DNA of 30,664 bases from a virus. Both the position numbers and the translations under genes were made by a program. Below are positions 1-30,664 of the stretch, one piece after another. Within the stretch, counting starts at the first letter, position 1, and the number at the start of each line of letters is the position of its first letter. The DNA lies in the IMG/VR virus record IMGVR_UViG_3300048583_000274, positions 64,001 through 94,664 of that record, one strand, 5' to 3'. Under the pieces are notes generated by a model that was given only the letters and a program-made list of their open reading frames with translations, did not search any database and was not told where the DNA came from.

Positions 1-1
1 C

Positions 2-241
2 AAAACCAACAAAGACTTACATAAGAACTATCAAGGTCAAACTATGCTTGGGCCTTTTCAGCATCTTTTAGATTGCCCTTTAAATCACTATGCTTTACAA
101 CTATCTTATTACCAAATACTCTTAGAACAAATAGGAGTAAATGTAAGTCAGAGAGTAATTGTTTGGTTAGGTTTGGATGGTAATTACACTTTGTTTACAA
201 CAGAAGATTTAACTAATGCCTTAAAACAAACCTTGAACTAA
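2..241 (+). CDS. C-terminal end of probable RecB-like PD-(D/E)XK nuclease (partial)
   Basis: The frame is open from the left edge, so this is the 3' end of a longer gene; the ATG at 44 is probably internal because residues KTNKDLHKNYQGQT read through before it. About 79 residues are visible. The segment HYALQLSYY (bases 86-112) contains QxxxY (Gln at 98-100), the motif that follows the catalytic core in RecB/Cas4-type PD-(D/E)XK nucleases, and the preceding 'hxLLDCPLNHYALQ' pattern is typical of phage members of that group. The catalytic Asp and Glu/Asp-x-Lys residues would lie upstream of the window, so activity cannot be judged. Its stop TAA overlaps the next gene's ATG (TAATG), which implies translational coupling to the connector genes. 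It could also be a non-catalytic relative. Confidence 0.55.
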   Translation, partial: KTNKDLHKNYQGQTMLGPFQHLLDCPLNHYALQLSYYQILLEQIGVNVSQRVIVWLGLDGNYTLFTTEDLTNALKQTLN

Positions 242-942
242 TGTTAATAGAAGCCTTTATAGATAGAATAGAAGCCTTATATGCTAAGGGAGTTCCCTCT
301 GATGAGAGTAGCTTGTCTCCTAGACACATTTATCTTAAAATGAAATCTGTAAGGATGCAATTACTTACTCAACAGATTAAAAAAAGACAAAAGTTAAGTG
401 ATTGGAATTACACAATTTTACCTTGTGTAGAGCTTATAAAAGTTCCTAGTCATGAATGTGCTTGTCTTGGAGAAATTGGTTGTGATGTTTATAGAACTAA
501 ATACCCTCTTCCTAAGATTATTACTGATTCTAATAAACACTATATAGACTTTGTAATGACTGTTGATAGTGGAAAAAGACTAGAAGAAATTTCTAGAGAA
601 GGAGTTTTGTATTTAAAAGGAAACAAATACACTGCTAATAAACCAAAGTATGTAATTGAAAATGGACACTTATATTTCCCTGTAAAGAAATCTCCGGGAA
701 TTGTAAAAATTAAATTTCTTGCTGAAGATCCTATTGAAGCTAAGACATATCCTTCTTTTTGTGATGATTGTCAAGACTGCATTGATTGTACTCCTATGAC
801 TAAATATGAATTTCCTATAGATGGAAATCTTATAGAGACTTTGATTACTCTTTGTAAAGAAGAATTACTTGGAGAATTTAACAGGGCTTTAAAAGATACT
901 AATAATGATTCTACAGATAATCAGAAAAGACAAGAAGAATAA
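241..942 (+). CDS. Cys-rich probable connector/ring structural protein
   Basis: This 233-residue protein is not assigned to a named family with certainty. Its N-terminus (IEAFIDRIEALYAKGVPSDE, then SPRHIYLKMKSVRMQLLTQQ) resembles proteins encoded just before the tail adaptor in crAss-like and other Bacteroidota podoviruses, where they form rings below the portal; that role is inferred from position. Nine Cys are visible, in two groups: HECACLGEIGC (C73, C75, C81) and FCDDCQDCIDC (C174, C177, C180, C183, a regular C-x2 repeat), which could bind a metal. The C-terminus is charged and probably flexible. The start ATG overlaps the upstream stop (TAATG) and the gene's own TAA overlaps the next ATG in the same way, so three genes are chained by one-base overlaps. 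Confidence 0.6.
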   Translation: MLIEAFIDRIEALYAKGVPSDESSLSPRHIYLKMKSVRMQLLTQQIKKRQKLSDWNYTILPCVELIKVPSHECACLGEIGCDVYRTKYPLPKIITDSNKHYIDFVMTVDSGKRLEEISREGVLYLKGNKYTANKPKYVIENGHLYFPVKKSPGIVKIKFLAEDPIEAKTYPSFCDDCQDCIDCTPMTKYEFPIDGNLIETLITLCKEELLGEFNRALKDTNNDSTDNQKRQEE

Positions 943-1415
943 TGTACAAAACTGAATTAAATATAAGGTCTGCCTATAAAGAGTATAGTAAAGAGTCTTC
1001 TAATCCTGTTGAATGTAAAGAGTTTGTCTCTATTGCTAATGAGTATATGAAGTTTCTTTTTGAAAAAGTCCTTGAAGGAGAAGAAGTAACTCTTCCTGCT
1101 AAAATGGGAACCTTATTAATCACAGGTAGAAAAAGAGCTTTAAAGTTCAATAAAGATGGAGTACCTATGTTACCTCCTAATTGGGGAGCAACTAAAAAGC
1201 TTTGGGAAAGAGACCCTGAAGCTAAGGCAACAAAAAAAGTTGTGTACTGTCTTAATGAGCATACTAATGGAGTTAGTTATAAAATCAATTGGTCTAAAAA
1301 TAGGGTACCTATAGAAAATAAGATTTACTATAACTTAATAATGGTAAGAGAAAATAAAAGAGCTGTTAATAAGAAAGTCACAAAAGAGAAAAAAGAGTAT
1401 TTAATTAAAACTTAA
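942..1415 (+). CDS. IHF/HU-like small structural-block protein
   Basis: This 157-residue basic protein has an N-terminal helical part followed by the segment around residues 28-68 (FVSIANEYMKFLFEKVLEGE, then VTLPAKMGTLLITGRKR). Two helices, a 'GE.V.LP..G.L.I' strand turn and a basic strand are the pattern that led to 'IHF subunit' annotations in crAss-like phage capsid blocks. The C-terminal 30 residues are Lys/Arg-rich (KKVTKEKKEYLIKT). It may bind DNA in or near the portal, or use the same fold as a ring component; the sequence does not decide between these. Two Cys are present. The gene begins inside the previous stop codon and is followed 4 bases later by the next gene. Confidence 0.6.
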   Translation: MYKTELNIRSAYKEYSKESSNPVECKEFVSIANEYMKFLFEKVLEGEEVTLPAKMGTLLITGRKRALKFNKDGVPMLPPNWGATKKLWERDPEAKATKKVVYCLNEHTNGVSYKINWSKNRVPIENKIYYNLIMVRENKRAVNKKVTKEKKEYLIKT

Positions 1416-1419
1416 AATT

Positions 1420-1689
1420 ATGTCAGAAGCAATATTAAATGCAGAGTATGAAAGCAAAAAAGCTTTTACTCTACCTGAAGGAGCTGTTATTATTAAAAAA
1501 TCTGAAACTATCTCTGTGAGAGAAATAGAAAATGGTTTTATTCTAAGAAAGTCCTATGACATTAAATGGAAAGCTGCAGATGGAGATGATACTCAGTATG
1601 AGTATTTTTCTAAAGAGTGGCACTCAACCAAAAATCCTTTATCTATAACAATGCCAAAGGAGAAATCCTTAGCAGATAAACTAGTTTAA
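1420..1689 (+). CDS. Small protein of unknown function in the connector operon
   Basis: An 89-residue protein that I do not recognise. It has no Cys, no signal peptide and no membrane segment. The middle alternates hydrophobic and polar residues (ENGFILRKSYDIKWKAADGD), suggesting a small beta-rich fold, and the C-terminus (ITMPKEKSLADKLV) is likely helical or extended. It starts after TAA-AATT-ATG and ends two bases before the tail adaptor gene, so it is clearly co-translated with virion genes and is probably a minor connector or assembly component. That role is inference from position alone. Confidence 0.6.
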   Translation: MSEAILNAEYESKKAFTLPEGAVIIKKSETISVREIENGFILRKSYDIKWKAADGDDTQYEYFSKEWHSTKNPLSITMPKEKSLADKLV

Positions 1690-1691
1690 TC

Positions 1692-2702
1692 ATGCCAAAG
1701 AAGTATAATTATGTAACTGTTGATACTATCCTTTCTAAATATCTCAGAGATTTTAGAGGGGGAGATTTCAATGAAGATGATGCTTTAGAGTGGATTGGAG
1801 AAGCTTTAGGTTTTATTAAAGCCCCTAATCTTTCTGAGGAAGCTATTGCTTTTCTTGAAGTTAAGAATTATCAAATCAATGTTCCGGAAGGATTACATTA
1901 TATTATACAGATAGCTAAAAACAATATGTGGTCTGCTGAAGAAACTTCTGCTTGTACTCCTAGTAATATTGTTAGTGAACTTGTTTCAGATCCTAGTTGC
2001 TCAGATTGTAGCCCATGTGGAGGGAACTCAAACTTAGTTCCTGTAAATTGTCAAGGAGAAATAATAGGAGACACTGAAGTAGCTTACTATAGACCTTACT
2101 TTGACTTACAATATGAGTACACAGATTGGGCAAATTCTAAAGGGTACAGAACTAAATTTACTCCTGTTAGACTAGCTGACCATACTTTTTTTAATACTTT
2201 GGTTTGTCAAACTGAAGAAACAAAAGGACTATACTCTAATCACAATAATTATGAAGAATACTCTATAATTCAAAATCAAATTAGGTTTAGTTTTAAAGAA
2301 GGGTTTGTAGCTGTTGCTTATGTGAGAACTAAACTAGACCCTGATACAGGCTATCCTATGGTGCCTGATGATGAATCTGCCAAATCAGCTATAACTTATT
2401 ACCTAGCTTGGAAAACTAAGCAGAGAGAAGCTTATAATCATAGAGAAGGGGCTAAGCTTTTAGCAGAAGAAGCAGAACAAAGATGGTTGAAGTACTGTAA
2501 ACAATTTAGAAATGCCGGCAAAATGCCTTATGGAATTGATGATTATCAAGATTTATTAGAACAATCTACTTATCTTATCCCAAGAAAAGGAAGATATTAT
2601 GATTTCTTTGGTAATCTTTCTAGAATGGAAGACAGAACTTTTACTGATCCTGACTTTAAAAATAAATTTACAGTAGGTCACAGACCTCATTATACATATT
2701 AA
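1692..2702 (+). CDS. Probable tail-tube / ring adaptor protein
   Basis: This 336-residue protein opens with YVTVDTILSKYLRDFRGGDF and an acidic helix (NEDDALEWIGEALGFI), the form of the N-terminus of head-tail adaptors and tail-tube proteins (P22 gp4 / T7 gp11 type roles) in crAss-like phages. A second long helical pair at about residues 232-280 (SAITYYLAWKTKQREAYNHR, then AEEAEQRWLKYC) supports an all-helical adaptor core. Between them is a Cys-rich insert, SCSDCSPCGG (C103, C106, C109), which may bind metal or form crosslinks. The gene lies immediately upstream (2-base gap, TAATTATG) of the giant nozzle gene, the order seen in crAss-like genomes. The general role is fairly secure; the exact ring position is not. 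Confidence 0.65.
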   Translation: MPKKYNYVTVDTILSKYLRDFRGGDFNEDDALEWIGEALGFIKAPNLSEEAIAFLEVKNYQINVPEGLHYIIQIAKNNMWSAEETSACTPSNIVSELVSDPSCSDCSPCGGNSNLVPVNCQGEIIGDTEVAYYRPYFDLQYEYTDWANSKGYRTKFTPVRLADHTFFNTLVCQTEETKGLYSNHNNYEEYSIIQNQIRFSFKEGFVAVAYVRTKLDPDTGYPMVPDDESAKSAITYYLAWKTKQREAYNHREGAKLLAEEAEQRWLKYCKQFRNAGKMPYGIDDYQDLLEQSTYLIPRKGRYYDFFGNLSRMEDRTFTDPDFKNKFTVGHRPHYTY

Positions 2703-2704
2703 TT

Positions 2705-5700
2705 ATGGCTAAAGAAGAAAAACAAAATCCTAACTCACAAGTAACAGCTTTAGGAGGGTTAAATACTGATACCTCTTTAGTCAATCAACCTCAAGGAACT
2801 ACAAGATTTGTTTTCACAGGAGTAAATGAAACTAATGAAGGAAACTTAGATAAGATTTCTGTTGAGGAATCTAATGAGATTTGCTATGTCCTTCCTGTAG
2901 GATACATTCCTTTAGGAAAAGTTTATATAGGAGAAGAAAATAAACTTCTATTTGCAGCTAATACTAGCGGAGATTCTTTAATACTTATCTTAGATAGAGA
3001 AAATACTGTAATTTCTACAATAGATGATAGTGCACAAACTGAAAAATTAGGTTTTTCTATTTCTCAACAAATTGATGCTACCTTTAGATTAAGAAGAGGT
3101 TGTGAAAGAACTGTATATTGGATTGATCCTAAACCTAGATCTGTAGTATTAGATAAGCTAGAAGACTTTAAAAATCCTTTGACAGGAGAGTGGGATATAT
3201 CTAAATTCTCTTTAATCAAAACCTATAAAAAAATACCTAAAGTTAATAATATTGAAGTAATAGATGGAGGAGGACAACTTGCTCCGGGAAGCTATAACTT
3301 CTCTATTAGATATTTAGATGAGGATTTTAATCCTACAGAGTTTGTAACTAGTACTGAAACTATTAGTATTTATAACTCAGCTCTATCTTCTTCTTATAAA
3401 GAAATTAGAGGAGCTACCAAAAAACAAGAAGTTTACACTAACTATGAAAATAGTAATAAATCTATTAAGCTTACTTTAGACCCTGAGAGTCTTGATACTA
3501 CTTTTCCTTTTTATCAAATAGCAATTACAGAGGCCAATACCGGTATAGGAATTATTTCAGATACTAAGTTTACTTCTGAAATTTCTACAAGTCAACCTAT
3601 TTTTTATTACACTGGCACTAATTTTCAAAGCTCAGGCTCTCAAGAAGAAGTTACTCTGTTTAATAATATTATAGAAAAGGCTCAAAGTATTGAACAAATT
3701 GAGAATACTTTAATTCTTGGAAATACAGAAGGGAAACAAATCAATTATTGTAAGCTACAAAAATATGCTAGTTTAATTAGTGCTGATTTAGTGACTAAAG
3801 AAATCTTTATTTCTGTAAAAGATGAAGGAAACTCTAAAGACCCTGCAGCTCATTTCCATGGTATAGGTTATATGCCGGGAGAAATTTATGGTTTTGGTAT
3901 TAATTTTATCTTAGAAGGAGACAACCAAGTTACTCCTACTTTTCATATCCCGGGAAAAAGCCCTTTAGCAGCTTTAAATCAAATGTACAGTATAGGTGCC
4001 AATGTGTATCCTATGTCTAATGTTAAAAACCAATGTCAAAGTACTAGATATACTGATATTAACTCTTGTGATTCAGGAGATTTATGGGGTAAAGATATAG
4101 AAGGAGAAGACCTTAAAGATGAACTTGTAAGACATCATAGATTTCCTTTAAGAACAGATTATGGAATTCCTTTTGTAGAAAAGATAGATGCAGAGAGTAC
4201 TGAAATAAATACTGTAGTAAGAAACATTAGAATTACAGCTACAAAAGAAGATGCAGTAATTCCTTTAATATGTCCTGCTAGTGATGCAGCTTGTCTTCCT
4301 ACAGATGAAGTTATGGCTGATTTTGGAGATCCTGTTACAGGGGCCGCATTTCAATTAGAATTAAACTATCAAGAGAATTTTGAGCCTAGAACTTTTACTG
4401 AAATCATAGACCCTTTAAATTATCTAGGGGAAGTGGGAGGAGCAACAACTGCTAATGTTTCTTATAATTCTGTTACCGGAACTATATTTTCAACTTTAGT
4501 TACAGTCACTTCTTTAAATGAAGTGTTTGAAGCTCCTACAGCTCCTAACCCTGTTACTTTAACTCTAGGAATAAATGCTATTACAGGCTTTCCGGAATAT
4601 ACCGGAACTTCTTTAATTACAGGACTTACTTATGTATTAACTGTAGGGATAGCTGAACTAGATTCTAAAGAAGATTTATACAAAGCCAATATTTTTGGTA
4701 TTAAATTTTCTAACATTCAACTTCCTTCTTTAGCAGATACAGGAGGCTACAAAGTTATTGGATACAACATAGTTAGACTTGAAAGAAAAGAAGAAGAGAA
4801 AACTATCCTAGATAGTGCAGTGCTTCTTCCTACTATCAAAGAGAAAAATTTTGTTTCTCAAGGATTACTATTTCCTCAATATGTTGATTCTACAGAAGAA
4901 AACATCAAACTTAAGAAAGACATATTAGGTTTTATTTCTCCGGAACATAAATTTAATAATAAGAAGTACTCAACTTTTACTGAAATTGTTCAACAAGGTA
5001 GATTTAGAAAAGATGAGGTCATTAAAAGTAGAATTAAAATCCATGATGTAGCTCCGGGTTCAGGGTATGTAGATGGTAAACATAAAGATGGAGAAAGAGA
5101 TATTGATGGATTTTGTCTTCATGTTAAAACTAGAGATAACTTCAGTACTTTCCTTCCTAGTAAAGACTTCATTATAGCTAATGCAGATATAAATGAAATC
5201 TTTTATCTAGATGCATTAGAAGAAAAGAATATTGAAGATAGTCAAGAAGCAGGGGTAAATGTATTTAACCTTGCTTGTGATAATAAGATAGGTATTCTTT
5301 CTTTAAAAGATTTGTACTCTTTCAATAATATAGCTTCTTTAAACTATGTTTATCTTTCAAGAGATAATGCAGAGCCTTACTCTAATTTTAGAGTAGACCC
5401 TTATTATCTAGATACAAAGAATCCTGTTTACTTTGGAGAAGATACTACTTCTAGTGTAGAGGTTTTTAATGGAGATTCTTACATTAATTCTATTAAATAT
5501 GTAAACAGTATTTACTATGATACTAGAATGAAACAAAGAGCAGGGAAGACCAATGCTTTTAGTTATGTTTTAGCTGCTGTTCTTGTTATAGCTGCTATTG
5601 CTATCACTATATTTAGTGCCGGTACAGGATCAATTATAGGAGCTGCTTTAGTAGGAGCTGCTGCAGGTCTTGTAGGAGGAGCTACAGCCTTAGTTCTTTC

Positions 5701-8578
5701 AGGTGTAAAACAAGATGCTTGGAATAAAGCTTACAATACCTTATACAAACAAGGTCTTAGAAATACTATCTCAGATAACTTTTTAGAAAGAGATTTAGAC
5801 CCTTTGAATGGAGAAGATAGAGGTAATTTAAAAAATCCCCATGATGATGAAATTCAGTGGTTAGGAGAAGCAGTTAATCTTTGGTTTGAATCTGCAGTTA
5901 ATATGGGATTAAGACATGGGGCCACAGATAATACTCCTGACTTTTTAGATGCTCCTAGTTCAGTACAACAAGGAACAAGCTATTCTGAATGGAATAGAGA
6001 ATACTTTGGAATTAATTCTGTAGGCTCCGGAAGTAAAAGAATTGAAGGAGGAACTAGACAAGAAGATATTATTCCTACTAATGCCTTGGATTTTCACATG
6101 TTCAATAAACTTACTTATGCTGATGCAGAAAAGAAAAGTGGGAGAGCTTATGTGGGAATAGCTTTAGCAGAAATGTATCTATTAAATCCTGACTATACTA
6201 GAAGAAACAAACAAAAAATCTATAATGCACTTGGCCCGGAATATGACTGTTGCTCAGATTGTGTAGAAACTTTTCCTCATAGATGGTATTGGTCAGAACA
6301 ATCTTTTCAAGAAGAATTAACAGATAACTTTAGAACTTTCTTACCTAACAACTATAGAGATTTAGAAGCTGAAACAGGAGCTATTACAGATATTTTTAGA
6401 GTTAAGAATAATTTGTATATCCATACTGAAGAAGCTTTATGGCATTGTCCTCAGACTTTTCAAGAAAGAGTTACTTCTGATATTATTTCTTTTATTGGAA
6501 CAGGGAGCTACTTCTCTATTCCTCCTAGAAAAATAGTAGATGATGCTAATTCTTCTGCAGGCAGCACTCATAAATGGGCAAGAATTAAAACTAAATATGG
6601 AGTTTTATTTCCTTCAGGAAAAGAGAAAAAATGGTATTTATTCAATGGAGAACAACTTCAACCTATTAGTGATAAAGGGAATAGTAGTTATTTTAGAAAC
6701 AATATGAATTTTAATATTGAAGATTCTTACTATCTTACTAATAAAAAGAACTATCCTTATTCTAATAACCCTTCTAATCCTATGGGAGTAGGCTTTGTTT
6801 CTGCTTATGACTCTAGTAAAGAAAGGTTTTTAATTACTAAAAAAGATTTCAAGATCAGTAATCTTCCTACTCAAGCTTATGAACTTTGTTCTGAGGGAAC
6901 TACTCCTATTCTATTTACTAATATGGCAGCCACTATTGCTGCAAGAGCTTTAGATGGTTGGGTATATTTAGGAATAGAAGATTGTAAAATGAAGTTTGAA
7001 AGAACTACCTATGTAGAAGATTTTGTGACTGTAAATCAATTCACAACTATTCCTAATGACTTGGATATCTATTATTTTATGGATACTTCAGGCTCTTTCC
7101 TTGCTGCTGACTTAGAACAAATTGAAGATAGCTTGTTGGCTTGGGTAGATGATACTCTAGTTCCTACAGGATGGGTAGGAACTATTACTAGAGTAGATAG
7201 TGCTACAGAAAAATGGTTAGCTTTCCCATCTGAAATTCCTTTATTAGATAGAGGTAAAGTATTATTAATCTCATTTGTCAATGAAGCTCAAGGAATACAA
7301 GGAGGAGGAGAGTATCACACTACTAGCCTTAATCTTACAGGACAACCTACTGCTAAATACATAGCAGATTATAATGCTTTTGTAACTAGTATTCATCCTA
7401 CTTATGAGCAATTTATAGGAATTAATTATCCTATAGCTACAGTAGGAGCTTCTAAACCTTTTATTTTGCATGCTCTTGCTGCTGTAAAAGGACAGGATTA
7501 TACTTTAGAAGAAGCAAATGAAATACCTTTCAATCAATTCTTTAGTGGCCCGGAATGGAGTACTTTAAAAACTGAGCTACAGACAAATCCTTATAACTCT
7601 TTATTAGATCCAAATAGTGAACCCGGCCTTGAGCAATGGGGTTGGCTAATTAAAGCTGATAGGAGTAGTGAAGGTAGTGCCGGGACTATAGATTGTCCTG
7701 CTAGTGAGTTAATCATATCTCCTTGTCAATTTGCATTAGATATGAATGAACTTCTTAGTGCCCAATTTACTGTTGAAGAAGTTATAGTAAGTGTTCTTAC
7801 TCCTACTACTGAAGTAGAGTATGAGTTTGGGTTAGCTTTTATTCCGGAGTATGTAAACTCTAGTTGGACTATGAGCTACTCTTTAAAGAAACAAGAATGG
7901 GTAGGATGGCATCCTTATCTTCCTAGTTTTTATTTACATGACCAAGAAAGAGTTTATTCTTGGATTCAAGGAAATAGAAATATTTTTAGACATAATAGAA
8001 AAGGACATTATGGTAATTTTTATGGCACTCAATACCCTTTTATTATTGAGTATGTAGATAATCCTAATCCTTTAATGACTAAGATTTGGGAAATGCTTTT
8101 GTTTCAAACTGAAGCTTCTAAATTTGATGTGGCTTCTCAAGAGTTTATAGATTTACCGGAGATTACTTTTAATAAAGTTTTATTCTATAATTCAGAACAA
8201 ATAAGTGGAGTCTTAGATTTAATTTTTAAAAATAAAACTAATCCTAACTATTTATTTCAACAAACTCAAAATGCTATTATATCTGACCAAAGTATTCTTC
8301 TTGATAAGAATGAGAAAGATTGGACTATAAATGATTTAAGAGATTATAGAACAAATATCTTGGTACCTATGTTCTTAAAGAATCTAGAAGCTTTACAAGC
8401 TAACTATTATGCAGACAAAATAGTTAATCCTGCTGCAATAAACTTTGCAAAAGATTGGACTCAACTTGAGAGTTTCAGAGACAAGTTCTTGGTAGTAAGA
8501 TTAATATTTGATACATTTGCTGATGTTAAGTTAACTTTTGATTTTGCATCTTTGGCTAAAAACAATTCAGAAAGATAA
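2705..8578 (+). CDS. Tail nozzle / muzzle ('stabilisation') protein, 1957 aa
   Basis: This very large protein matches the crAss-like phage stabilisation/muzzle family, the distal part of the short tail. The N-terminus (ALGGLNTDTSLVNQPQGTTR, then VFTGVNETNEGN) and the C-terminal region (KKQEWVGWHPYLPSFYLHDQ, then RHNRKGHYGNFYG) are the recognisable family stretches; beta-strand repeats dominate between them. Residues 951-1000 (bases 5555-5704) are an uninterrupted hydrophobic Ala/Gly/Val/Ile segment, long enough for two membrane spans and unusual inside a beta-rich tail protein. Residues 1454-1464 read DIYYFMDTSGS, with a DxSxS MIDAS-like motif (D1460, S1462, S1464) followed at 1519 by VLLISFVNEA, suggesting an inserted VWA-like domain. 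About 17 Cys are present, including DCCSDC at 1181-1186. The start follows TAATTATG. Family role is known; the membrane and VWA roles are inference. Confidence 0.8.
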   Translation: MAKEEKQNPNSQVTALGGLNTDTSLVNQPQGTTRFVFTGVNETNEGNLDKISVEESNEICYVLPVGYIPLGKVYIGEENKLLFAANTSGDSLILILDRENTVISTIDDSAQTEKLGFSISQQIDATFRLRRGCERTVYWIDPKPRSVVLDKLEDFKNPLTGEWDISKFSLIKTYKKIPKVNNIEVIDGGGQLAPGSYNFSIRYLDEDFNPTEFVTSTETISIYNSALSSSYKEIRGATKKQEVYTNYENSNKSIKLTLDPESLDTTFPFYQIAITEANTGIGIISDTKFTSEISTSQPIFYYTGTNFQSSGSQEEVTLFNNIIEKAQSIEQIENTLILGNTEGKQINYCKLQKYASLISADLVTKEIFISVKDEGNSKDPAAHFHGIGYMPGEIYGFGINFILEGDNQVTPTFHIPGKSPLAALNQMYSIGANVYPMSNVKNQCQSTRYTDINSCDSGDLWGKDIEGEDLKDELVRHHRFPLRTDYGIPFVEKIDAESTEINTVVRNIRITATKEDAVIPLICPASDAACLPTDEVMADFGDPVTGAAFQLELNYQENFEPRTFTEIIDPLNYLGEVGGATTANVSYNSVTGTIFSTLVTVTSLNEVFEAPTAPNPVTLTLGINAITGFPEYTGTSLITGLTYVLTVGIAELDSKEDLYKANIFGIKFSNIQLPSLADTGGYKVIGYNIVRLERKEEEKTILDSAVLLPTIKEKNFVSQGLLFPQYVDSTEENIKLKKDILGFISPEHKFNNKKYSTFTEIVQQGRFRKDEVIKSRIKIHDVAPGSGYVDGKHKDGERDIDGFCLHVKTRDNFSTFLPSKDFIIANADINEIFYLDALEEKNIEDSQEAGVNVFNLACDNKIGILSLKDLYSFNNIASLNYVYLSRDNAEPYSNFRVDPYYLDTKNPVYFGEDTTSSVEVFNGDSYINSIKYVNSIYYDTRMKQRAGKTNAFSYVLAAVLVIAAIAITIFSAGTGSIIGAALVGAAAGLVGGATALVLSGVKQDAWNKAYNTLYKQGLRNTISDNFLERDLDPLNGEDRGNLKNPHDDEIQWLGEAVNLWFESAVNMGLRHGATDNTPDFLDAPSSVQQGTSYSEWNREYFGINSVGSGSKRIEGGTRQEDIIPTNALDFHMFNKLTYADAEKKSGRAYVGIALAEMYLLNPDYTRRNKQKIYNALGPEYDCCSDCVETFPHRWYWSEQSFQEELTDNFRTFLPNNYRDLEAETGAITDIFRVKNNLYIHTEEALWHCPQTFQERVTSDIISFIGTGSYFSIPPRKIVDDANSSAGSTHKWARIKTKYGVLFPSGKEKKWYLFNGEQLQPISDKGNSSYFRNNMNFNIEDSYYLTNKKNYPYSNNPSNPMGVGFVSAYDSSKERFLITKKDFKISNLPTQAYELCSEGTTPILFTNMAATIAARALDGWVYLGIEDCKMKFERTTYVEDFVTVNQFTTIPNDLDIYYFMDTSGSFLAADLEQIEDSLLAWVDDTLVPTGWVGTITRVDSATEKWLAFPSEIPLLDRGKVLLISFVNEAQGIQGGGEYHTTSLNLTGQPTAKYIADYNAFVTSIHPTYEQFIGINYPIATVGASKPFILHALAAVKGQDYTLEEANEIPFNQFFSGPEWSTLKTELQTNPYNSLLDPNSEPGLEQWGWLIKADRSSEGSAGTIDCPASELIISPCQFALDMNELLSAQFTVEEVIVSVLTPTTEVEYEFGLAFIPEYVNSSWTMSYSLKKQEWVGWHPYLPSFYLHDQERVYSWIQGNRNIFRHNRKGHYGNFYGTQYPFIIEYVDNPNPLMTKIWEMLLFQTEASKFDVASQEFIDLPEITFNKVLFYNSEQISGVLDLIFKNKTNPNYLFQQTQNAIISDQSILLDKNEKDWTINDLRDYRTNILVPMFLKNLEALQANYYADKIVNPAAINFAKDWTQLESFRDKFLVVRLIFDTFADVKLTFDFASLAKNNSER

Positions 8579-8591: not shown

Positions 8592-8608
8592 AAAAAGTAA
8601 AGAGTATT

Positions 8609-10069: not shown

Positions 10070-10071
10070 TT

Positions 10072-12065: not shown

Positions 12066-12089
12066 TTACCATCATTAATTTTACTTACC

Positions 12090-24000: not shown

Positions 24001-25355
24001 TTATTACTCAGTATTATCAACATAATCCTGACCAAGTGAAAAGCATTGCTTTAAATGATAAAAGTATTGCAGACCTTTCTGCAGACAGAACTGCTTTTAC
24101 TTTAAATCAAGACATCAGCCCTAAGTTTTTATCTGTAAAACAGAAAACAAACAGTAAGTTAAAACAAGATAAGTTCACTTTGTACAAGCATGTTGGCTAT
24201 AATAAATATGTCAAAATTGATGTATTAGGTATCCATGGTATGAATGAATATGATGCTCTTAATAAAGATGTCAAATCTATTATTACTAAAGTAGACTCTG
24301 TAATTGGAGAAGGAGAAAGAGTTCCTCTTGATCCTACTACTTTTATTAGTCCTAATGTTGAAACTATTATTCAACCTCAAGGAGAACTTATCCAAGATAA
24401 TAGTAATGGATTAGACACTTTAAAAAGAATTATAAGTAGCAGTACTTCAAATAGATACAAAGCTTTAGCTGAAGCTTTACTTCCATTTGCTAGTATAAAT
24501 ACTCAAGTAAAAGTTGGAGCCACTAGTACAGGATTTGGAACTAAAGTAAGTGGATTCTTTAAAGACAACACAATCACTATTGACAACACTGTGCCGGCAC
24601 AAGAAAAGGAAAGAGTATTTATGCATGAAATGGTACATGCTATTACTTTAAATAAGATTAGACCTTATTACAGTCAAGATGCTGATGGATTTTATACTGT
24701 AGTCAGTCCTACTGCTCCTAGTTATGTGAAAGAGCTAGATACTGTATGGAAAGAATACATTAAAAATACAGACCCTGTATTAGTAGAAAGAGCTAAAAAG
24801 AAAACTATAGATTTGAGAAACAAAAGACCTGCTTTATTCTCTACAGAAGAACTAGAAATAGGCTACCCTGCTATAGATATTTTTGAATTCTTTGCAGTAG
24901 CTTTAGAATCTGAGACTTTCCAAAAACATTTAAGTAGCATACCAATGGATAAGGCTACTCTTATGGATAAATTCATAGATGTAATTAGAACAGTCTTATC
25001 AGAAATAGGAGTTTCTATAGAAAAGGGTAGTCTTGCTGAAAAATCTTTAAGCTCTATCTTTAATTTTATAGAAAATGAAGCTGAGGTAGAAAAACAAAAA
25101 GCTATCTTTGCTTCTATTAATGCAAACATTTCTGCTGAAGAACTTGCTATAATGGATAGAGCTTTAGCTGAAGAACAGGAAAGAATTAGTCAGTTGCCTC
25201 CTGATAATTTTGATCCTACTGAGGATTCAAATGAAGCTCCTGATGAAACTTTAATGCCGGCCTCAGAAGAATTACTTTCAGAAGTAGGCTTAACTCAAGA
25301 ACAATGGGCTTCTTTGAGTAAGACTGAAAAAACTAAAATAAAAGATTGTAAATAA
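12090..25355 (+). CDS. Giant virion RNA polymerase fused to a zinc metallopeptidase domain, 4421 aa
   Basis: The catalytic loop D3245-F-D3247-V-D3249 (bases 21822-21836) is the DxDxD Mg-binding motif of crAss-like vRNAPs, which belong to the single-chain, double-psi-beta-barrel polymerases. It is preceded by FRTPTS (R3206), spaced 39 residues before D3245, much as the beta' subunit places its conserved Arg-x-Pro-Thr before NADFDGD. An earlier block, MGTQIFKLLFGDG (K2963), probably belongs to the partner barrel. The polymerase part likely spans about residues 2040-3900, after an acidic Lys/Glu linker near 2005-2030. The first about 2000 residues are helical, Ala/Lys/Glu-rich and unrecognised. 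Near the C-terminus HEMVH (H4179, E4180, H4183) with a possible third ligand E4266 marks a zincin. The only Cys is residue 4420. It would be packaged and ejected to transcribe early genes. Phi14:2 gp66 is about 2180 residues and N4 vRNAP about 3500, so this is very large. ATG at 12090 lacks a Shine-Dalgarno site. Confidence 0.85.
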   Translation: MSGKKELTIQELFNRAAKKQTAQGPTPTISGANVIAGSQGATDSQIAEASSKGTYGERQKVLSAPSKEAISMEKRKLEIEVAKETAQLEKEAALDVVPGTLNATIKEQVKDDDKFVEIVKKGEKVEANLAEASKKNTDFFDGNGFNLFAPAYKLYDLFAEEKDKLGRGKEYDVAKAEKAQYLEEIRPYTETHNKFLKAEVERLEAEEQEIRKQKIELSQQTNIPTISSSAFMPIGAKLEAEQQTRTPEQIELDKKQNLKRSTRILLAQAQSKLNDFTTGETSIWNGIGNTNRDLATVGLSSMTTDLEVLGVVNKAEKDRTPEEQELLTAYARKAEVEKLDLFQDEFWYRAAEGTGHSLVFMESMLLTRGAGGAVRQATQKGMQGALKKTLSETIKGSFKRKLGVALTQRAIPASVEIGTQTLLSPTTYASMVKEKLGDVSIVKDIDGKERVVVNDEAFKAFEKEHFLNKEYIEFQKNKILGKGELTPKDEENLKMLDSRLKDLDSTLEQLRPKSWFESFAYGATETAKEFVAEKYVGRIGDKLGASKFVQKGLSKLPFAKTRKFLNEQIVSGQDVINKSFLGTLSSKAMYHTGANKIYNGLPGEILEEIAVQATPTLRFENFGQEYLNQLAELTEPAFYADVVGQTLLMSGGTTTLGTAGNIANYKKRKQFYNDRREIRNAYKNIDKAITDEDLAETILMASAGTSFSQLDYNYKIAKLRKENKHEEANAIEQKKFMTMAVKAIETNTLDEFEKALSKLSSNTDTQFSTETAVNIGLAKAKIEEIKKTYAQYSNRSNVGKILDLATQKIALKESVQNLDKELDTQRALANEELELLMPERASESLAPIVLDIDSIIDETADTPELQSEVDRYLDLIDKTASPAIKTYISLLEAKENTQAARRMVMKEYNEQVSPEFEVSAQRIKSVQRQIADTVNFIEKNNISEAASLDSTGRIVWTDSFVEDIFKKVDTKGISKAKLDQLKQGYKNIAKSQAQIRNAGASTRIANLYDQALIEAKKQPVTPEPITSTNEVTDATQEVDTQVQYEKELSAIKEGLLDPMITQSPEIDEDYLFQIPSFANALKTKEGEITISDVKNITGITSDVLAQKIMGSINANLKATRPTELAQEEVVQEAQEQVAQAVVSLQSQVENIINPVQEFPDYLQVEEDSLDLDPTSLKPLGVEGLTPEQIKALGVFAKDAFNQVKQYSGVEPTFKDFVHYFIRFAGKEKAENSFEAYKLGWEVANLPSANYTEVYDEIFEPLKNTFLASQAHIDSIFSTTPTSLATVTEAVEDAKEQNKVIEKAQVETVTFNEENVPVKSDNDRRISGEALRLGFNAIKYEEQEILDEQGNKTGRFKRIAVLTDTLNLQDSVIDFRSLLDPDKNNAGDTLNVGVVPETEWNTIPVYVGRDSEQKPIIKTFAEIFSEKLIENPNFRETQEFIDIVPVVAYNSNNKPIAHIHETSWYNIWNVSDPSKRDGVIDPTNVSMSHLQAIEEAKQTVSDFRSAIVNKGVKKITILEKKEGPFYTIEDRKDEQGNVVDFVSLNETNPQAIVAVQGNQGVLEVGDKLPFENESRAIINKDQVFQKGKGGHIWNLRRIGTSPEGKQLWRAFKSMNAKNTKEPARIPEEELETVRWAWSAYSFFDTQVFQNGGAIIQQNREKHVVGTAYDMDEAKAREIIQAIKDNTGYNLMRFEDADAFFSLYFHPKIGRQRQDYAKSIYSTVNGTEFYHNVNRNALNKDPNMVKIVAGEVISLNQKYNDYLKSKYYTGVLSFNIGTAEEPNYVTSIQPTITFQYDMEVKEETPVTVVEERKLATEVEVTQLKQTTSTAAQLIAEAKKLQQELGFKPQSTSLALPSTMKGIDALKDIFNLTPGLDIAQEAHLLNFIYNYINTAIGIKKDSKANKKEVLTAITNSYNDIVLPSKQKIDTLKTQLEALKETDFSTELADTLENLNFMSRVLTNIENNWNVNNIKATLEAQGVPYSGQKGIIEKAMEEVEKTSDIKEKQLQNDLEDKEKADETSDEGGEALKIKSFEDNASLTENGKNKTSYRLRRFMSGILRVDSEGNPIKGFLGLPEYINYNEAYDTLFQLLGSGVYIESDFVLMKAKILEMKKAQPWVVELMERFDKADAQLRNEFVVNYRKHAVSMKFTMYSSTKDGAKLKVYDTNANEVSRVIVKEWENNFKLSPLVNTVEGKYLINKEKAKELLDQYNSWERQGHLQPDSVVKGWLSNFGLKFSEGYWDELKNTGFNYGGEAIPYNRSFEGNTTPIGLLVKYLENVDKQKDLNFEENEKAHPFKDMNAVIKALSKGESKYSGKILSKSFRDAKKSISGLTQPTHATDRVDDLIRAISSGNTELIDTLKSISITSNSTLLELLQNDTDFYKKLEINHLGLTSIKEYAKENFNSAAITDLNNLDHDLAKLGMFQDTQQGTVGAEIGGFKLRMARMFLPTMSDKTQMLTMATGVFDFMSQSTIAFYKKDGELAFTPDLRELLYQKLILPEMKRISKFHKEVKSTDIKDYDNAAQLFNFFPALNMLTDSNGDRITKHLVEQDVETVEKAYKEQLIDVIEATMHSLVEEKKTKLAPFVNRDVSGKVDKVKFFDAKYLSKGKGNLEENFETAVYDFVLNSVLTNADMFTILAGDPALYSQDKLFKGQESPNSVIEDNFYSTFAEKHGVNIGKRLALLIAPGRVLAQSNTADAQYLQVFLKDSVDITANADYLITLFAGKEALSEPLFENATQTVAEALIEYRASENNTRKSVIRTALKNKFADIDKLGDYFDIESTDAQEYTTVNEHLKVLFLDGKLSEEDYNQLLAKVAEGQVLSKEELGQVLQPIKPVYTGQIFEKNDKGEIKGDVARTVYIKSSSFPLIPQLVAGTNLENLKNSLEALEKKHGKTVRASYETANKVGSKISSVTINPVNLNTEESLEKAMLVLDRKNFRIQQDVPFKSDSKKEDTVAMGTQIFKLLFGDGVIDVQEKSFEYEGAIYNGRELYEKYKDNFETLVNLKKQDLFKELGLNEIGVPISEEKTMNKLQTLLQKEAESRDYPLQDIRSLGIETLYDKAGNVYYDFKTPLWLTTNSDRFESLLNAIVTKRIMNHKMPGNAFVAGSENGFSFKKDLTGINQSRVIYFDNFNGKELEAAQLNEDGSLKKAQVLVPSKFKNKEGKLIDLFATNDEGQNIYVEKRENGTWKLKEGVISPELFNLFSFRTPTSSHVSASSIEVVGILPPEVGDLIITPKNFTKQMGQDFDVDKLSTYQLHHVVDFKTGKVEPLTQKHKERGLRKISMFLEELDFQRESMNRKMVFADVLEILTVFEQKEEINLGELLGPDLMEELIEEQEDKYAKVESTFNKKLAENAFIKMHLSVFNSSSPVIQEKINKVLSMEFAKSQANKIQDLIEQGKKEEANYQMTQEGLTPEEIKEVTPMIQTSFTILSDEYQKSKMALGSAGKMAIGIYSNYVTFHALTQQVNTKLSLNEKEVTIGNYTSSGLIGKKDTLDGKRSIAEAFAERQNTATDNEKEQILGRVNVNSTTIGVDSLLTLLGFDQDEKGNSISYMLLSQPIIKDYVEMMSASKGITAPFQKNVEESTLTALVAKYGKGEYNFDSNERTISNEKGLVEGAELTGEALTQGITKNGKEAKVQMAALQTFLDLKKYAENIAKVQSVLFTDNLGKSIVESNVKYEALKTFSENKLINNVDQLIGEFAPVEAGKPEGNGYILVGDYYIKPTTPQGQIAVQGMTTAQTLWSDFFPYNSPGLQAIISEVLKISEVKADSKFQTIEKTLEVLKEAKKYIYSWKGLGLYTEPTTEERKRLFISNGTNTSLAQYLSQNSKDEALVNNKLLNRFTYEVELDGRPSLIKYNNTISDNLEEKYLYNSLAELMLEDKPLPDFNGNKFSTRQLAQELVSYAYLEGGVQQAIQFIKYIPVEYLSEVGINTAEGFLSAATVLQRINVKRDPMIFDKLLGTPGGTVETSPFITQYYQHNPDQVKSIALNDKSIADLSADRTAFTLNQDISPKFLSVKQKTNSKLKQDKFTLYKHVGYNKYVKIDVLGIHGMNEYDALNKDVKSIITKVDSVIGEGERVPLDPTTFISPNVETIIQPQGELIQDNSNGLDTLKRIISSSTSNRYKALAEALLPFASINTQVKVGATSTGFGTKVSGFFKDNTITIDNTVPAQEKERVFMHEMVHAITLNKIRPYYSQDADGFYTVVSPTAPSYVKELDTVWKEYIKNTDPVLVERAKKKTIDLRNKRPALFSTEELEIGYPAIDIFEFFAVALESETFQKHLSSIPMDKATLMDKFIDVIRTVLSEIGVSIEKGSLAEKSLSSIFNFIENEAEVEKQKAIFASINANISAEELAIMDRALAEEQERISQLPPDNFDPTEDSNEAPDETLMPASEELLSEVGLTQEQWASLSKTEKTKIKDCK

Positions 25356-25357
25356 TT

Positions 25358-28300
25358 ATGGCAAATTGTATAAATAAAAAGTCTCCGGAATTTCAAGCCT
25401 TATTAGCTAATGTTAGAAAAAGCTCTCCTATTGAGGGAGCTTTTTCTACTGAAGCTAGTATTGATATTTTAGCAGCTAGAGTAAGTATTTGGCAAGATTT
25501 GAATGGATTAAATAAATTCCCTTCTCCTCAAGAAATGCTTAAGACTAATTGGAAGAAAAAAGAAAGTATGTCTAATTCAATCTATGAATTAGAACAAAGA
25601 GGAATTACTTCAATTAGAGCTATTCAACCCGGAATGAAAACAGCTTTTCACTCTTTTCATAATAACCTAGTAGCTCAAATGAATAAGGCTTATGGTTTTA
25701 ATTTTAAAGAGTTATTTACTGTTGAAACTGTTATAAAAGAAGGCAGTTTTGATGGTAAGTTTCCTAGAAAAGTATCTGAGAGAATAATTCCTAATAAACA
25801 AGCTTTTGAAGCTATTGATGCTAAAAGAAAAGAGTTAGGTTTATATGAAGATGGATTTCCTTTTTCTGCTTTAGAAGAAGCTAAAAAAGTAGAATACACT
25901 TCAGACCAAGCTTTAGAAGATGTTGAGAACTCTGATTTAGTTTATAATGGAGAACAATACCATAGTAGAGAAGCTTTTGAAGCTGATATGCAAGCCGGAG
26001 AGCAATTAACTTTGTTTATGGGAGCAACATACTCAGCTACTAATTATGCTTCAGTAGTGAGCTTTAAACAAAGTGTTCTTAAAACTGTAGAAACTAGGTT
26101 AAAAGATGCTCAACAAAAAAGAAGTACTGATAAAAGTGTAGAGCTTAAACAAGAAGTAAAAGACCTTACTAACCTCAAAGCTAAACTAAATAGAGATATT
26201 AGTGAGCTTATGAATGATCCTGATATTTTTAGTAAGACAATGTCTGTATTTAATCAAGACATTGCTTTTATGAAAAATCTAATAAGAAAAGGAAGACTTG
26301 AAGATTTACATTTAGCTGAAGATTATGTACAATATTTTAAGAATATCTCTAATTATTCCGGAAGTAACACTTCCAATACTTTTATTGTAGATACTTCAGA
26401 CCCAAATCTTATTGAGCCTGCCATTAGACAAAAGCTTGATGAACTTACTGTTGAAGTTCAAAATGCTGAAGGAGCTATTATCACAGCTAAGAAAGATTAC
26501 TTACTTCAAATCATAGAAGAAAGTGATGCTCTTAAAGGTATGTTTGGGGATAATGCAGAAGAAGTAAGAGATTTACTTTTAGGTATTGATAAAAATGGAG
26601 AACAAACTCAGAAAGATATTGATAAGTTAAGCAAGTACTTTTTAGCTACAGACTTTACTTTTGGAGGAGCCTCAGAGCTTTTAGGACAACTTATTGTCAA
26701 TGTATTAAAAGACAAGAAATCTACTAATAAAGTAGAAGCTAATAAATATATGCAAGCTATTTCTAAATTAGAAGCAGGAGTAAAAGCTGAGCTATCTAAA
26801 TTAGGACAAGGAGTTACTTATTTTAGTAAACTTCCTTTTATTGGTAAGCATATTTCTGAAGTGTCCTATGATTTATTCTATCAAATAACTTCTAAAGGAA
26901 ATAAAACAGGAAGATTAGTAGGTAAGTATGCTCACAAATGGTTCCATGATATTTCTTTCTTCAATAAAGACATCCTAAATAGACTAGATGCTGCTATTGC
27001 TGCAGGAGATGGAATTAAAGCTAATGAAATTCTAGCTGAAAAGTATAAAGGATTAGCTGAAAGAGTTGATTTTATAGAGCTTCAGAAATTACCTGAGATT
27101 ATAAATAATCCTGAATTTGCAGTATTTGCTCCTTACTTTGATAAAGCCGGAGCCAATGCTTACAGTGCAGAGCTTAAAGCTAAAATTGGTAATTATGAGT
27201 ATAAAAAACTTGTAGAACAACAGACTGTATTCTTAGAAGATTATTTGTATGGTATTACAGAAGATCTGAATCAACTGATGAATTTACATGGGGTTACTAC
27301 ACCGGCAGATTTACCTATGCCTGTTGTTCATCATCATAATATCACAGTTAGAAGAAAAAATCCTTTTGAGTTTATTAAATCTCACACTTCAGGCCACTTA
27401 CCTGACAGAGGAAAGATAACCTATACTACAGGAACTAGTACTAATGAGTATCAAGCTTTGATTACTCACAATACTTATATTCCTAAGAAAGAAATTCAAA
27501 AATATAATTCTGTAGCTAATCAAATATTCACAGAAGACTCCGGTTACTATGATGAAAACTTCAATACTATTGAATCTAATCCTACTTTACTTGAGTTTTG
27601 GGAAACTATGAGTGATGCAGTAGAATGGATGAATAATAGTTTGAATGATGCTAACACTCCTTTAAGTCATAACTCTTTATTGAGAATGGAGCAATCCTTC
27701 ACAGATATTCTATTGAGTAAGAAAATAGGAGTAGGAGCTAAGGCAGTACACTTATTCAGAAGCACAGGGAAGACCCTGAAGGACTTATTTACAAAACAAA
27801 TAAGAAGTATTAGTGCAGAACAAAAAGAAACTGTTGCAGCTCAAAATATAAAGACTATTCAAGGCCCGGTTAACAAAAGAATGAAAATAATTTTAATGGC
27901 TTTATCTAATGAATTGGGGACTCAATTATCTACAACTAGTAAGATTAATTTAGATACTATCTCAGCTAAAACCACTAAGATTATTCAGGATGTAATGCAA
28001 ACTCCTATAAATACAATTAGAGCTGAATTTGGTACTGAATTTCCTCTTACTGCATTAAGAGAAGTTTTGACTGATCAAGTAATGGAAGAACAAACTTTTA
28101 ACTTGCCTGTAATGTTAAGAGCTTATCTTGATGCTACCGGTACCTATAGAGCCCAAAAAGAATCTCTTCCTAAAATCAGTATTCTTAAAGATTTATATGA
28201 TAGAATAAAGTTAGCTAAGGAAAATCCTAATGCATCTGTACTCCCAACTGTAACAGCCAAAGTATTCAAAAGAAAGGTTACTAAAGAAGGAGACATTAGC

Positions 28301-30523
28301 AATACTAGAGTTAATGCTATAGAAAGAATGAACTATTGGATAGAAAGAGCTGTAAAAAATAGAGCTGAAGAAGGTCTTACTGATACTGCTTATTATTGGG
28401 CTAAGTTAGGAAAGACTTATACTAAAGAAGAAAAAATGTTCTTAGAACAGGCTAAAGAATATCTTAAACAATTACAAGATAAGATTGATGCAAATGACCC
28501 TAATGATGATATAGAAGCTTTACAAAATGAAGCTATGGAGATTCAACATATTGTTGATAATACAGGTCACTATTATGCTTTATCTGCAGCCTATGAAGCC
28601 ATAGCTAATAAACTTATGGTATTTAAAGGATTAGCTTGGAATGCTCCTGCTCAAGTAATGAACAGATTTCAAGGATTACACTCTGCTTTAATTAATGATA
28701 CAGGAAGATTTTGGACTCAAGGAAATATTTATGGGGCCATGGCTTTTGTAAATAGAAAAGGAATAAGAAGAATTCCCGGAATGTCTTCTTACAGAGAAGA
28801 AGTATCTAAGGTAAAACTTCTTGTAGAAATGTTAGGAGTTCTTCAAGATGCTACTAATGAATTAGATAGAGCCCAAAATACTTCAGGTATTACAGGATTG
28901 AAGAAAAAACTAAATCCTTTCTATTTAACTGAATATGTTGAGTGGCACAATCAAGTTCCTATGATACTAGCTATGTTAGCTGACCATCACATTCAGGTAC
29001 CTAATATTTTAGATGCTAATGGAGAACCTGTATATATTCCTATCTTCAATGACTCTACTAAAAAAGTTGTATTGAATGATGGAAGCACTTATACTATTCC
29101 TTATGGCTTACCGGCATACTCTTTAAAACAAGGTAGGCTTACCTTAAAACCTGAGTTTGACACTCCTGAAAACAATGAAACTTGGATGGATTTTTCTAGT
29201 TCAGAAGGCAACCAAATTTATAATAAAATTGATACTAGTCTAGCTTATATCAATGGAGATTATAGAAAGGATGCTGCTATCCTATTGAAAAAGACTCCTA
29301 TAGGTAAATCAGCTTTAACTTTTAAGAGTTGGGCTGCAATGAACTACCATAACAGATTTGCAAGAAAAGCTACCAATATTAATCTTGGATTAAAAGATTT
29401 TGATGGAGCTTATACAGGTGCTATGACTTCAGGAAAAACCTCTATTGCCGGAGCTTTTGGTATGGCTTCTATAGCCGGAGCCGGAGTAATTGCAGGAGGA
29501 ACTTTTGGATTATTTGCAGGAGGAGCTATAGCTACAGGCCTTATAGGATATGGGGCTTGGAAAGCTATCAACTATAAGAAACATGAACAAGAAGAAATAA
29601 AAGCTCTTCTTCAAATGACAGCTATGGGACAAGCCTTACTGAAGAAAGCTATAGGAGTTCCTGTAAATTTAGTATCAGGAAAAGATATTATCAAAGCTCA
29701 TACTTTTAATGAACTTAACCTTACTCCTCAAGAAAGACAAAACTTGCAATTTATAATAGGAGAAATGACCAATTTAGCTTATGCACTTTTATTAAAAATT
29801 CTTTATAAAAGTCTTGCAGGAGATGATGAAGAAGAAGAGCCTAAAACTGTGCTTAACTCACAAGGAAAGAGAGTTCCTAATCCTTTATATGGTAAAGAAG
29901 AAAAGACTATCTTAGAAAAAGGCTTGTACAATCTTCAAGAAAATATGCTTACTGATTTCATTCAACAAAGTACTCAGTTTGTAAATCCCATGGAGAGTTG
30001 GGAATTAGCTAGTGCCCCTGCTGCTTTAGATAGTTGGTTTACCACTTCTACTAAAATAGGAACAGCCTTGTGGAAATCTGCAAATGGAGAACCTACTTTA
30101 CAAACAGGGCCCAATGCAGGTAAAAATAGAATAGGAGTAGCTGCTGTTAAAGGCTTCCTTCCCGGAGTTATAGGAGAATACATTCTTCTATCTGATGATG
30201 AAGAAGCAATGCCTTATGCTTTTGGTTTTGGTAATAAGATGTCTCAAGAATGGAACTCTTCAGAAATTGTAGATGATTGGTTTACTTCAGACTATAAAAA
30301 AGATAGAAAAATTTTCAAAGAAAGAAGAAAAGAATTGAAAGATGATCTAACTAAATATTGGGAAAAAGAGTGGAAAGAAAGACTTGAAAAGAATAAGGAC
30401 AATCCTGTAAAGCTTGATAAAATTAAAGCTAAAATAGACAAAAAAGTCAAAAGAGAAGTGAACTCAACCCTTCCTTATCCTAACAGAGCTTTATATGATA
30501 AAGACCAACAACTAAAAGATTAA
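25358..30523 (+). CDS. Large cargo-type virion protein with hydrophobic hairpin, 1721 aa
   Basis: The N-terminus (MANCINKKSPEFQALL, then ILAARVSIWQDLNGLNKFPS) is a pattern I associate with the starts of giant crAss-like phage proteins next to the vRNAP; its single Cys is residue 4. Long helical stretches fill most of the length, with a His-rich spot VVHHHN (H658-H660) of unknown meaning. Residues 1362-1401 (bases 29441-29560) are a Gly/Ala/Ile-rich hydrophobic segment long enough for one or two membrane spans. The C-terminus (about 1645-1721) is highly charged, rich in Lys, Glu and Asp. It follows the vRNAP gene by two bases (TAATTATG), so the two are co-translated and probably co-packaged. 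No catalytic motif is visible. A part in membrane passage or as a polymerase partner is inference. Confidence 0.7.
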   Translation: MANCINKKSPEFQALLANVRKSSPIEGAFSTEASIDILAARVSIWQDLNGLNKFPSPQEMLKTNWKKKESMSNSIYELEQRGITSIRAIQPGMKTAFHSFHNNLVAQMNKAYGFNFKELFTVETVIKEGSFDGKFPRKVSERIIPNKQAFEAIDAKRKELGLYEDGFPFSALEEAKKVEYTSDQALEDVENSDLVYNGEQYHSREAFEADMQAGEQLTLFMGATYSATNYASVVSFKQSVLKTVETRLKDAQQKRSTDKSVELKQEVKDLTNLKAKLNRDISELMNDPDIFSKTMSVFNQDIAFMKNLIRKGRLEDLHLAEDYVQYFKNISNYSGSNTSNTFIVDTSDPNLIEPAIRQKLDELTVEVQNAEGAIITAKKDYLLQIIEESDALKGMFGDNAEEVRDLLLGIDKNGEQTQKDIDKLSKYFLATDFTFGGASELLGQLIVNVLKDKKSTNKVEANKYMQAISKLEAGVKAELSKLGQGVTYFSKLPFIGKHISEVSYDLFYQITSKGNKTGRLVGKYAHKWFHDISFFNKDILNRLDAAIAAGDGIKANEILAEKYKGLAERVDFIELQKLPEIINNPEFAVFAPYFDKAGANAYSAELKAKIGNYEYKKLVEQQTVFLEDYLYGITEDLNQLMNLHGVTTPADLPMPVVHHHNITVRRKNPFEFIKSHTSGHLPDRGKITYTTGTSTNEYQALITHNTYIPKKEIQKYNSVANQIFTEDSGYYDENFNTIESNPTLLEFWETMSDAVEWMNNSLNDANTPLSHNSLLRMEQSFTDILLSKKIGVGAKAVHLFRSTGKTLKDLFTKQIRSISAEQKETVAAQNIKTIQGPVNKRMKIILMALSNELGTQLSTTSKINLDTISAKTTKIIQDVMQTPINTIRAEFGTEFPLTALREVLTDQVMEEQTFNLPVMLRAYLDATGTYRAQKESLPKISILKDLYDRIKLAKENPNASVLPTVTAKVFKRKVTKEGDISNTRVNAIERMNYWIERAVKNRAEEGLTDTAYYWAKLGKTYTKEEKMFLEQAKEYLKQLQDKIDANDPNDDIEALQNEAMEIQHIVDNTGHYYALSAAYEAIANKLMVFKGLAWNAPAQVMNRFQGLHSALINDTGRFWTQGNIYGAMAFVNRKGIRRIPGMSSYREEVSKVKLLVEMLGVLQDATNELDRAQNTSGITGLKKKLNPFYLTEYVEWHNQVPMILAMLADHHIQVPNILDANGEPVYIPIFNDSTKKVVLNDGSTYTIPYGLPAYSLKQGRLTLKPEFDTPENNETWMDFSSSEGNQIYNKIDTSLAYINGDYRKDAAILLKKTPIGKSALTFKSWAAMNYHNRFARKATNINLGLKDFDGAYTGAMTSGKTSIAGAFGMASIAGAGVIAGGTFGLFAGGAIATGLIGYGAWKAINYKKHEQEEIKALLQMTAMGQALLKKAIGVPVNLVSGKDIIKAHTFNELNLTPQERQNLQFIIGEMTNLAYALLLKILYKSLAGDDEEEEPKTVLNSQGKRVPNPLYGKEEKTILEKGLYNLQENMLTDFIQQSTQFVNPMESWELASAPAALDSWFTTSTKIGTALWKSANGEPTLQTGPNAGKNRIGVAAVKGFLPGVIGEYILLSDDEEAMPYAFGFGNKMSQEWNSSEIVDDWFTSDYKKDRKIFKERRKELKDDLTKYWEKEWKERLEKNKDNPVKLDKIKAKIDKKVKREVNSTLPYPNRALYDKDQQLKD

Positions 30524-30544
30524 CATACACTAAAACAAAAAAAA

Positions 30545-30580
30545 AAAAATAAAGTGAGGCTTTGGCTTCACTTTATTTTT
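30545..30580 (+). terminator. Strong bidirectional intrinsic terminator
   Basis: AATAAAGTGAGGC (30548-30560) pairs with GCTTCACTTTATT (30565-30577) across a TTTG loop, with one G-T wobble; three more A-T pairs extend the stem to 16 bp. The right arm runs into TTTTT (30576-30580) for + strand transcripts, and the long A-run before the left arm (30537-30549) supplies the U-tract for minus-strand transcripts. It sits between the end of the virion operon and the stop codon of a convergent gene, exactly where a two-way terminator is expected. Confidence 0.9.
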
Positions 30581-30664
30581 ATGGGTAATAGTAATGTAGT
30601 TTATTTAAGAAATTAGGGTCTTCTTTTGTCAAGTACTCTTGTAAAGGTAAATGTACAGCCATCT
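30579..30664 (-). CDS. 3' end of a convergent minus-strand gene (partial, unknown product)
   Basis: Reading the minus strand from the right edge, a frame stays open for 27 codons from ATG (30662-30660) and ends in TAA at 30581-30579: MAVHLPLQEYLTKEDPNFLN followed by KLHYYYP. Codon choice matches the rest of the window (AT-rich, TAA stop), and the stop abuts the bidirectional terminator, which fits a real gene end. Whether the ATG is the true start or an internal Met cannot be told, since the frame continues to the edge. The fragment is too short to identify a family. If real, it marks the boundary with an oppositely oriented gene block, common in crAss-like genomes. Confidence 0.55.
   Translation of the reverse strand, partial: MAVHLPLQEYLTKEDPNFLNKLHYYYP

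Follow-up and report, generated by a model that had tools for sequence, protein, structure and literature searches.

Near-complete, transition-only conversion of CTGG and CCAG to CCGG in a crAss-like phage genome, with the form of a Vsr repair footprint

A crAss-like phage genome has exchanged CTGG and CCAG for CCGG by a directional, motif-specific and transition-only conversion that is nearly complete at synonymous positions. The stretch analysed here (the window; 30,664 nucleotides) covers positions 64001-94664, the final third, of the 94,664-bp IMG/VR record IMGVR_UViG_3300048583_000274. It contains 67 CCGG sites, two CTGG (3612 and 17389) and one CCAG (11710). Of its 75 CpG dinucleotides (O/E 0.094), 67 lie inside CCGG and the other eight at 2968, 4345, 9717, 10724, 12024, 19643, 21459 and 21502. 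The first-pass annotation, made from the sequence alone, had given all four of these counts correctly, and its positions for the eight isolated CpGs were correct to within 0-2 bases. The relevant features are listed below in window coordinates.

1..30664, no strand: window-wide conversion, with 67 CCGG, 2 CTGG and 1 CCAG
2705..8578, plus strand: 1957-aa virion protein
3612..3615, plus strand: residual CTGG, read as ACT GG., where conversion would be synonymous
11710..11713, plus strand: residual CCAG, read as CCA G.., where conversion would be synonymous
12090..25355, plus strand: 4421-aa virion protein with 24 CCGG and 1 residual CTGG
17389..17392, plus strand: residual CTGG, read as ACT GG., where conversion would be synonymous
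25358..30523, plus strand: 1721-aa protein with 0 residual CTGG/CCAG

A 127-bp direct repeat was common to both ends of the 94,664-bp genome, which was therefore taken as complete. Pfam searches matched the crAss capsid family (PF23898, E = 3e-163) and CrAss_Ring families, and the major capsid protein (MCP) shared 83% identity with its counterpart in phages of Flavobacterium psychrophilum, Fpv3 among them, and 71-92% with those of dozens of IMG/VR contigs. The capsid and ring proteins, the ~95-kb genome and the kinship with Flavobacterium phages place the phage in the Crassvirales as a Fipvunavirus-like member, and its host is probably a Flavobacterium-like bacterium. The window encodes virion proteins, those of 1957, 4421 and 1721 aa among them.

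Expected site numbers were obtained from 200 synonymous-codon shuffles of the window genes. Against these, CTGG was found twice rather than 111.8 +/- 5.8 times (z -18.9), CCAG once rather than 18.1 +/- 3.8 times (z -4.5) and CCGG 67 rather than 22.1 +/- 4.1 times (z +10.9), so the depletion of CTGG and CCAG first noticed by eye stands. The codon choices reported with it were also borne out: all 19 Pro-Gly pairs in the window are written through CCGG (CCG in 13, CCC in 6), and Ala-Gly is written with GCA (26) or GCC (17) and never with GCT. The same signature extends over the remaining 64 kb (120 CCGG, 26 CTGG/CCAG), giving 187 CCGG, 16 CTGG and 13 CCAG in the whole phage. Expressed as CCGG/(CCGG+CTGG+CCAG), the fraction was 0.957 in the window (67/70) and 0.82 over the remainder of the genome (120/146), compared with 0.124 in a 25-contig sister set, 0.002 in CCGG-free sisters and 0 in Fpv3. 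Relatives of the 1957-aa protein (~60% identity, L001-L004) carried 0-7 CCGG and 86-93 CTGG+CCAG per 25 kb. The equivalent fraction for the nine other CpG contexts was 0-2% in the window and the remainder of the phage, and 0-0.03 when the sister sets and Fpv3 were included; CCGG is thus the sole CpG context affected by the conversion.

The fate of the lost sites at the codon level distinguishes conversion from avoidance. For proline before G[ACT], CCA fell from.27 in CCGG-free sisters to.03 in the phage and CCG rose from.00 to.19, with no significant difference in CCT (.72 and.76). For serine, threonine and alanine before GG, xCT fell from.27 to.03 and xCC rose from.00 to.21, again with no significant difference in the remaining codon, xCA (.72 and.76). 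The swap is therefore transition-only and one-for-one (xCT|GG to xCC|GG and CCA|G to CCG|G), with the other synonymous shares unchanged, and the T:A to C:G change is limited to the T variants of a single methylase-type motif. Restriction of CTGG/CCAG by a host enzyme could in principle empty the same sites, had the phage evaded it through synonymous transitions whose products chanced to be CCGG. Full purging of 4-bp sites does occur in phages of this group (Fpv3 has no GATC, no CCGG and nearly no CTAG), MW202828, a phage described below, has purged CTGG, CCAG and CCGG, and the present phage itself avoids GGWCC and GGTGA. Real avoidance in these kin, however, proceeds by transversion to preferred codons: at CTAG in Fpv3, xCT|AG became xCA (.36 to.92) and CTA|G became CTT (.66 to.93), and in MW202828 CCA|G went to CCT (.98) and xCT|GG to xCA (.93). 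The lost sites of our phage did not redistribute by codon preference, which predicts less than one CCG where 54 of 273 were found (p 9e-78) and is likewise rejected for xCC (68 of 308, p 6e-105), although CpG is otherwise shunned in this genome. Partially converted contigs (G033 and G034, below) are already one-for-one. Taken together, these results make restriction avoidance a poor explanation for the swap, and we consider it quite unlikely.

Codon alignments showed how the conversion met the constraint of the encoded proteins. CCAG and CTGG of relatives became CCGG in synonymous phases, and CTGG at tryptophan codons of relatives became TTGG, never CGG, which indicates that damaging conversions were purged by selection. 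Every one of the 67 CCGG sites in the window lies in codon phase 0 or 1, with none in phase 2. Modified bases can give rise to systematic miscalls on some sequencing platforms, and a read or assembly artefact from such bases was therefore considered. Since all 67 CCGG sites respect the reading frame by falling in phases that allow synonymous entry, and conserved tryptophan codons are intact, an artefact is effectively ruled out; the pattern was also found again in several independent metagenomes. Residual sites were commoner in genes of limited distribution among the sisters, a 712-aa tail gene being one of them (Fisher p 0.004), as would be expected were newly acquired DNA still undergoing conversion.

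We next considered how widely the signature occurs. Among ~150 related loci, near-complete loss of CTGG/CCAG with gain of CCGG was confined to this phage, and the CCGG state switches at least seven times on the MCP tree. When the 712-aa tail protein of the phage was used as query, 34 contigs were matched, and an equivalent one-for-one swap was present in L313 (74:0), L315 (41:6), G033 (174:104) and G034 (120:156), ranging from complete to about half-way; G035 and G036 were weaker, and other contigs bearing this gene lacked the signature. A second tail gene used as query returned no relatives. The 712-aa protein (L007 17165-19303; phage 57165-59303) is 65-87% identical across viral contigs of 30-70% GC, and its gene is an unusually mobile phage gene. 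The signature thus reappears, in full or in part, in no fewer than four further, unrelated flavophage-type contigs with little or no CpG loss. The fully converted L313 has 74 CCGG, 0 CTGG, 0 CCAG and normal CpG, and its terminase matches phages of Flavobacterium, Cellulophaga, Tenacibaculum and Maribacter. The conversion was absent from the cultured Flavobacterium phages checked (Fpv3, 6H, 11b, FCL-2 and elemoA).

The first-pass annotation had taken the survival of CpG within CCGG as part of a repair record, and this part of its reading was not supported; it mixed two phenomena: a group-wide loss of CpG, and the loss of CTGG/CCAG with gain of CCGG. CpG depletion is common to nearly all close relatives, many of which lack CCGG entirely, with CTGG/CCAG at least as frequent as expected, so that CpG, CCGG included, is stripped group-wide in phages without conversion. 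Conversely, L313 is fully converted yet normal in CpG. CpG O/E falls to 0.01-0.1 in Flavobacterium-phage-like crAss contigs (the window and L001-L163), and this loss is not of deamination type. Deamination of 5mC as its cause was rejected on two grounds: the window has no excess of TpG or CpA (TG O/E 1.05, CA 0.82), and before G the lost xCC share has gone to xCA rather than xCT.

Repair of T:G to C:G at CCGG would leave such a directional, transition-only pattern, as had been proposed at the outset by analogy with Vsr, and in both form and strength the pattern matches the Vsr footprint of E. coli. The E. coli genome, where Dcm and a proven Vsr are present, has xCT before TGG in 1 of 213 cases compared with 23% before other T codons. 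The same codon signature was seen in the temperate phages lambda (3% xCT|TGG), P2 (3%) and P1 (2%), so that a host Vsr can imprint phage genomes almost completely; lytic T7 (36%) lacks the footprint, so not all phages carry the mark of a host Vsr (L360-L363). Very-short-patch (VSP) repair by Dcm/Vsr in E. coli therefore resembles the conversion described here in being a motif-specific T:A to C:G change, in the near-complete replacement of xCT by xCC and in a host imprint visible in temperate phages. It differs in motif (CTWGG/CCWGG rather than CTGG/CCGG), and the enzyme on the side of our crAss-like phage is deduced from the footprint.

Based on this likeness, we favor, with reasonable though far from full confidence, host-encoded CCGG methylation coupled to Vsr-like T:G repair as the agent of the conversion. 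CTGG and CCAG would become CCGG by sequence-specific T:A to C:G conversion of phage DNA inside the host cell. Most likely, the Flavobacterium-like host methylates CCGG with a C5-methylase and a host Vsr-type endonuclease nicks at the T of the T:G mismatch in CTGG/CCGG. Such repair would reverse 5mC deamination at CCGG, and would also turn T:G mismatches that arise at ordinary CTGG sites in replication or recombination into C:G, just as E. coli Vsr 'repairs' T:G mismatches at CTWGG to C:G. Over many generations CTGG and CCAG would drain into CCGG where the change is synonymous; at C|TGG (Trp), C|CAG (Gln) and CTG|G (Leu), selection would keep the protein and the site would be lost by other synonymous changes.

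Components of such a system have been described elsewhere. V.NgoAXIV, a Neisseria Vsr with in vitro cutting activity on T:G in CTGG/CCGG (PMC6116569), comes from a phylum other than that of the Flavobacterium-like host, and a clean one-for-one codon swap was absent from the one 50-kb stretch of N. gonorrhoeae examined. In F. psychrophilum, which is host to phages such as Fpv3 and belongs to the genus infected by the nearest cultured phages, an HpaII-like restriction-modification (R-M) system of CCGG specificity (FpsJI) is among the two most prevalent (PMC11837570); the text on these systems does not mention Vsr (PMC11837570). By restricting CCGG, an HpaII-like system explains the CCGG-free sisters, not the CCGG-rich phages. 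Helicobacter genomes with CCGG R-M genes show a CCGG excess for which no explanation was offered (PMC4687349), a likeness to our phage that covers the excess alone.

The first-pass annotation had left open whether the methylase and Vsr-like nuclease belonged to host or phage. Neither Vsr (PF03852) nor a C5-methylase (PF00145) was matched in the complete phage genome, nor above cut-off in any of 30 sister records. Vsr was absent from all 17 records searched that bear the 712-aa tail gene, and the single C5-methylase among them lay in a signature-free contig (G046/L337). No recognisable enzyme of either kind thus supports the phage half of that proposal, which narrows the agent towards the host. 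Together with the repeated changes of CCGG state and the swap in separate contigs, this argues that the conversion is host-driven. Conversion by an unrecognised enzyme of the phage is unlikely in our judgement: several phage genes do lack relatives among nine complete sisters, and some are ORFans or homing-endonuclease-like (LAGLIDADG, HNH, GIY-YIG), but Pfam and genome searches found no methylase or Vsr, the large tail protein that sisters lack also occurs in signature-free contigs, and the sisters show intermediate states and repeated switching. An adenine deaminase acting specifically at CCAG (A to I), or a different glycosylase pathway that targets T:G or A without the Vsr fold, would make the identical base change on both strands, and the class of enzyme cannot be read from the sequence pattern by itself. 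To our knowledge, however, there is no CCAG-specific DNA adenine deaminase, whereas Vsr is the one known class with such a footprint and has a CTGG/CCGG-cutting member, and we regard these non-Vsr routes as equally improbable. A search for the host by MCP among genome contigs returned only JAGLZG010000009.1 (L166), a crAss-like contig (MCP 63%) that is probably misbinned in a Nanoarchaeota-labelled MAG. A scan for CTGG loss in viral contigs that carry a Vsr found none with a deficit as strong as that of the phage, and in vsr-bearing Bacteroidota segments the sole trend of this kind was a weak one in Parabacteroides, which was not used as support.

The closest annotated kin of L313, the podovirus MW202828 from Manatee Spring, has 3 CTGG, 1 CCAG and 0 CCGG in 50 kb (L355; MW202828.1 1-50000), and proline codons stand before GG in only 4 of 513 cases. 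Its near-absence of Pro-Gly is the removal of a dipeptide by selection at the DNA level. Exactly this pattern would be imposed by a host in which CCGG is restricted and CTGG/CCAG are also converted to CCGG; it is a prediction of the model and not proof of it. More broadly, we tentatively suggest that host mismatch-repair enzymes may rewrite resident phages near-completely at their motifs, so that phage composition would report the methylase and Vsr repertoire of the host; where CCGG is also restricted, CTGG and CCAG might become a liability, being first converted and then cut, leading to an MW202828-like purge of all three sites and most Pro-Gly. The open-access literature searched contained no report of such a footprint at CTGG or of a Vsr footprint in phage genomes, including a near-complete VSP-type footprint of CTGG/CCGG specificity such as this one. 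Such footprints could allow host methylation and repair systems to be read from the sequence of uncultured phages, and suggest a testable explanation for the unexplained CCGG excess of some genomes. The codon test tells mutational conversion and restriction avoidance apart, which has long been hard to do when sites are missing from phages.

Several other site deficits were seen in this group. In the whole phage (G000), GGWCC occurs 5 times compared with ~46 expected and GGTGA 9 times on two strands compared with ~86, which suggests further host R-M systems. The GGWCC loss was rejected as a second conversion, as Gly-Pro forces GGNCC and avoidance suffices. L018/G001 (CCWGG 1 compared with ~53 expected, CCSGG 47, GATC 0) was likewise rejected, since most of its added CCGG falls at Pro-Gly, a pair that must be written through CCSGG once CCWGG is avoided. 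The 88-kb genome of Fpv3 (L164-L165) is almost wholly devoid of GATC, CCGG, CTAG, GGCC and CTNAG, with GATC and CCGG both at 0. Finally, a spore-photoproduct-lyase-like radical SAM gene lies in the early region (L005 5827-6666) and is present in several sisters too.
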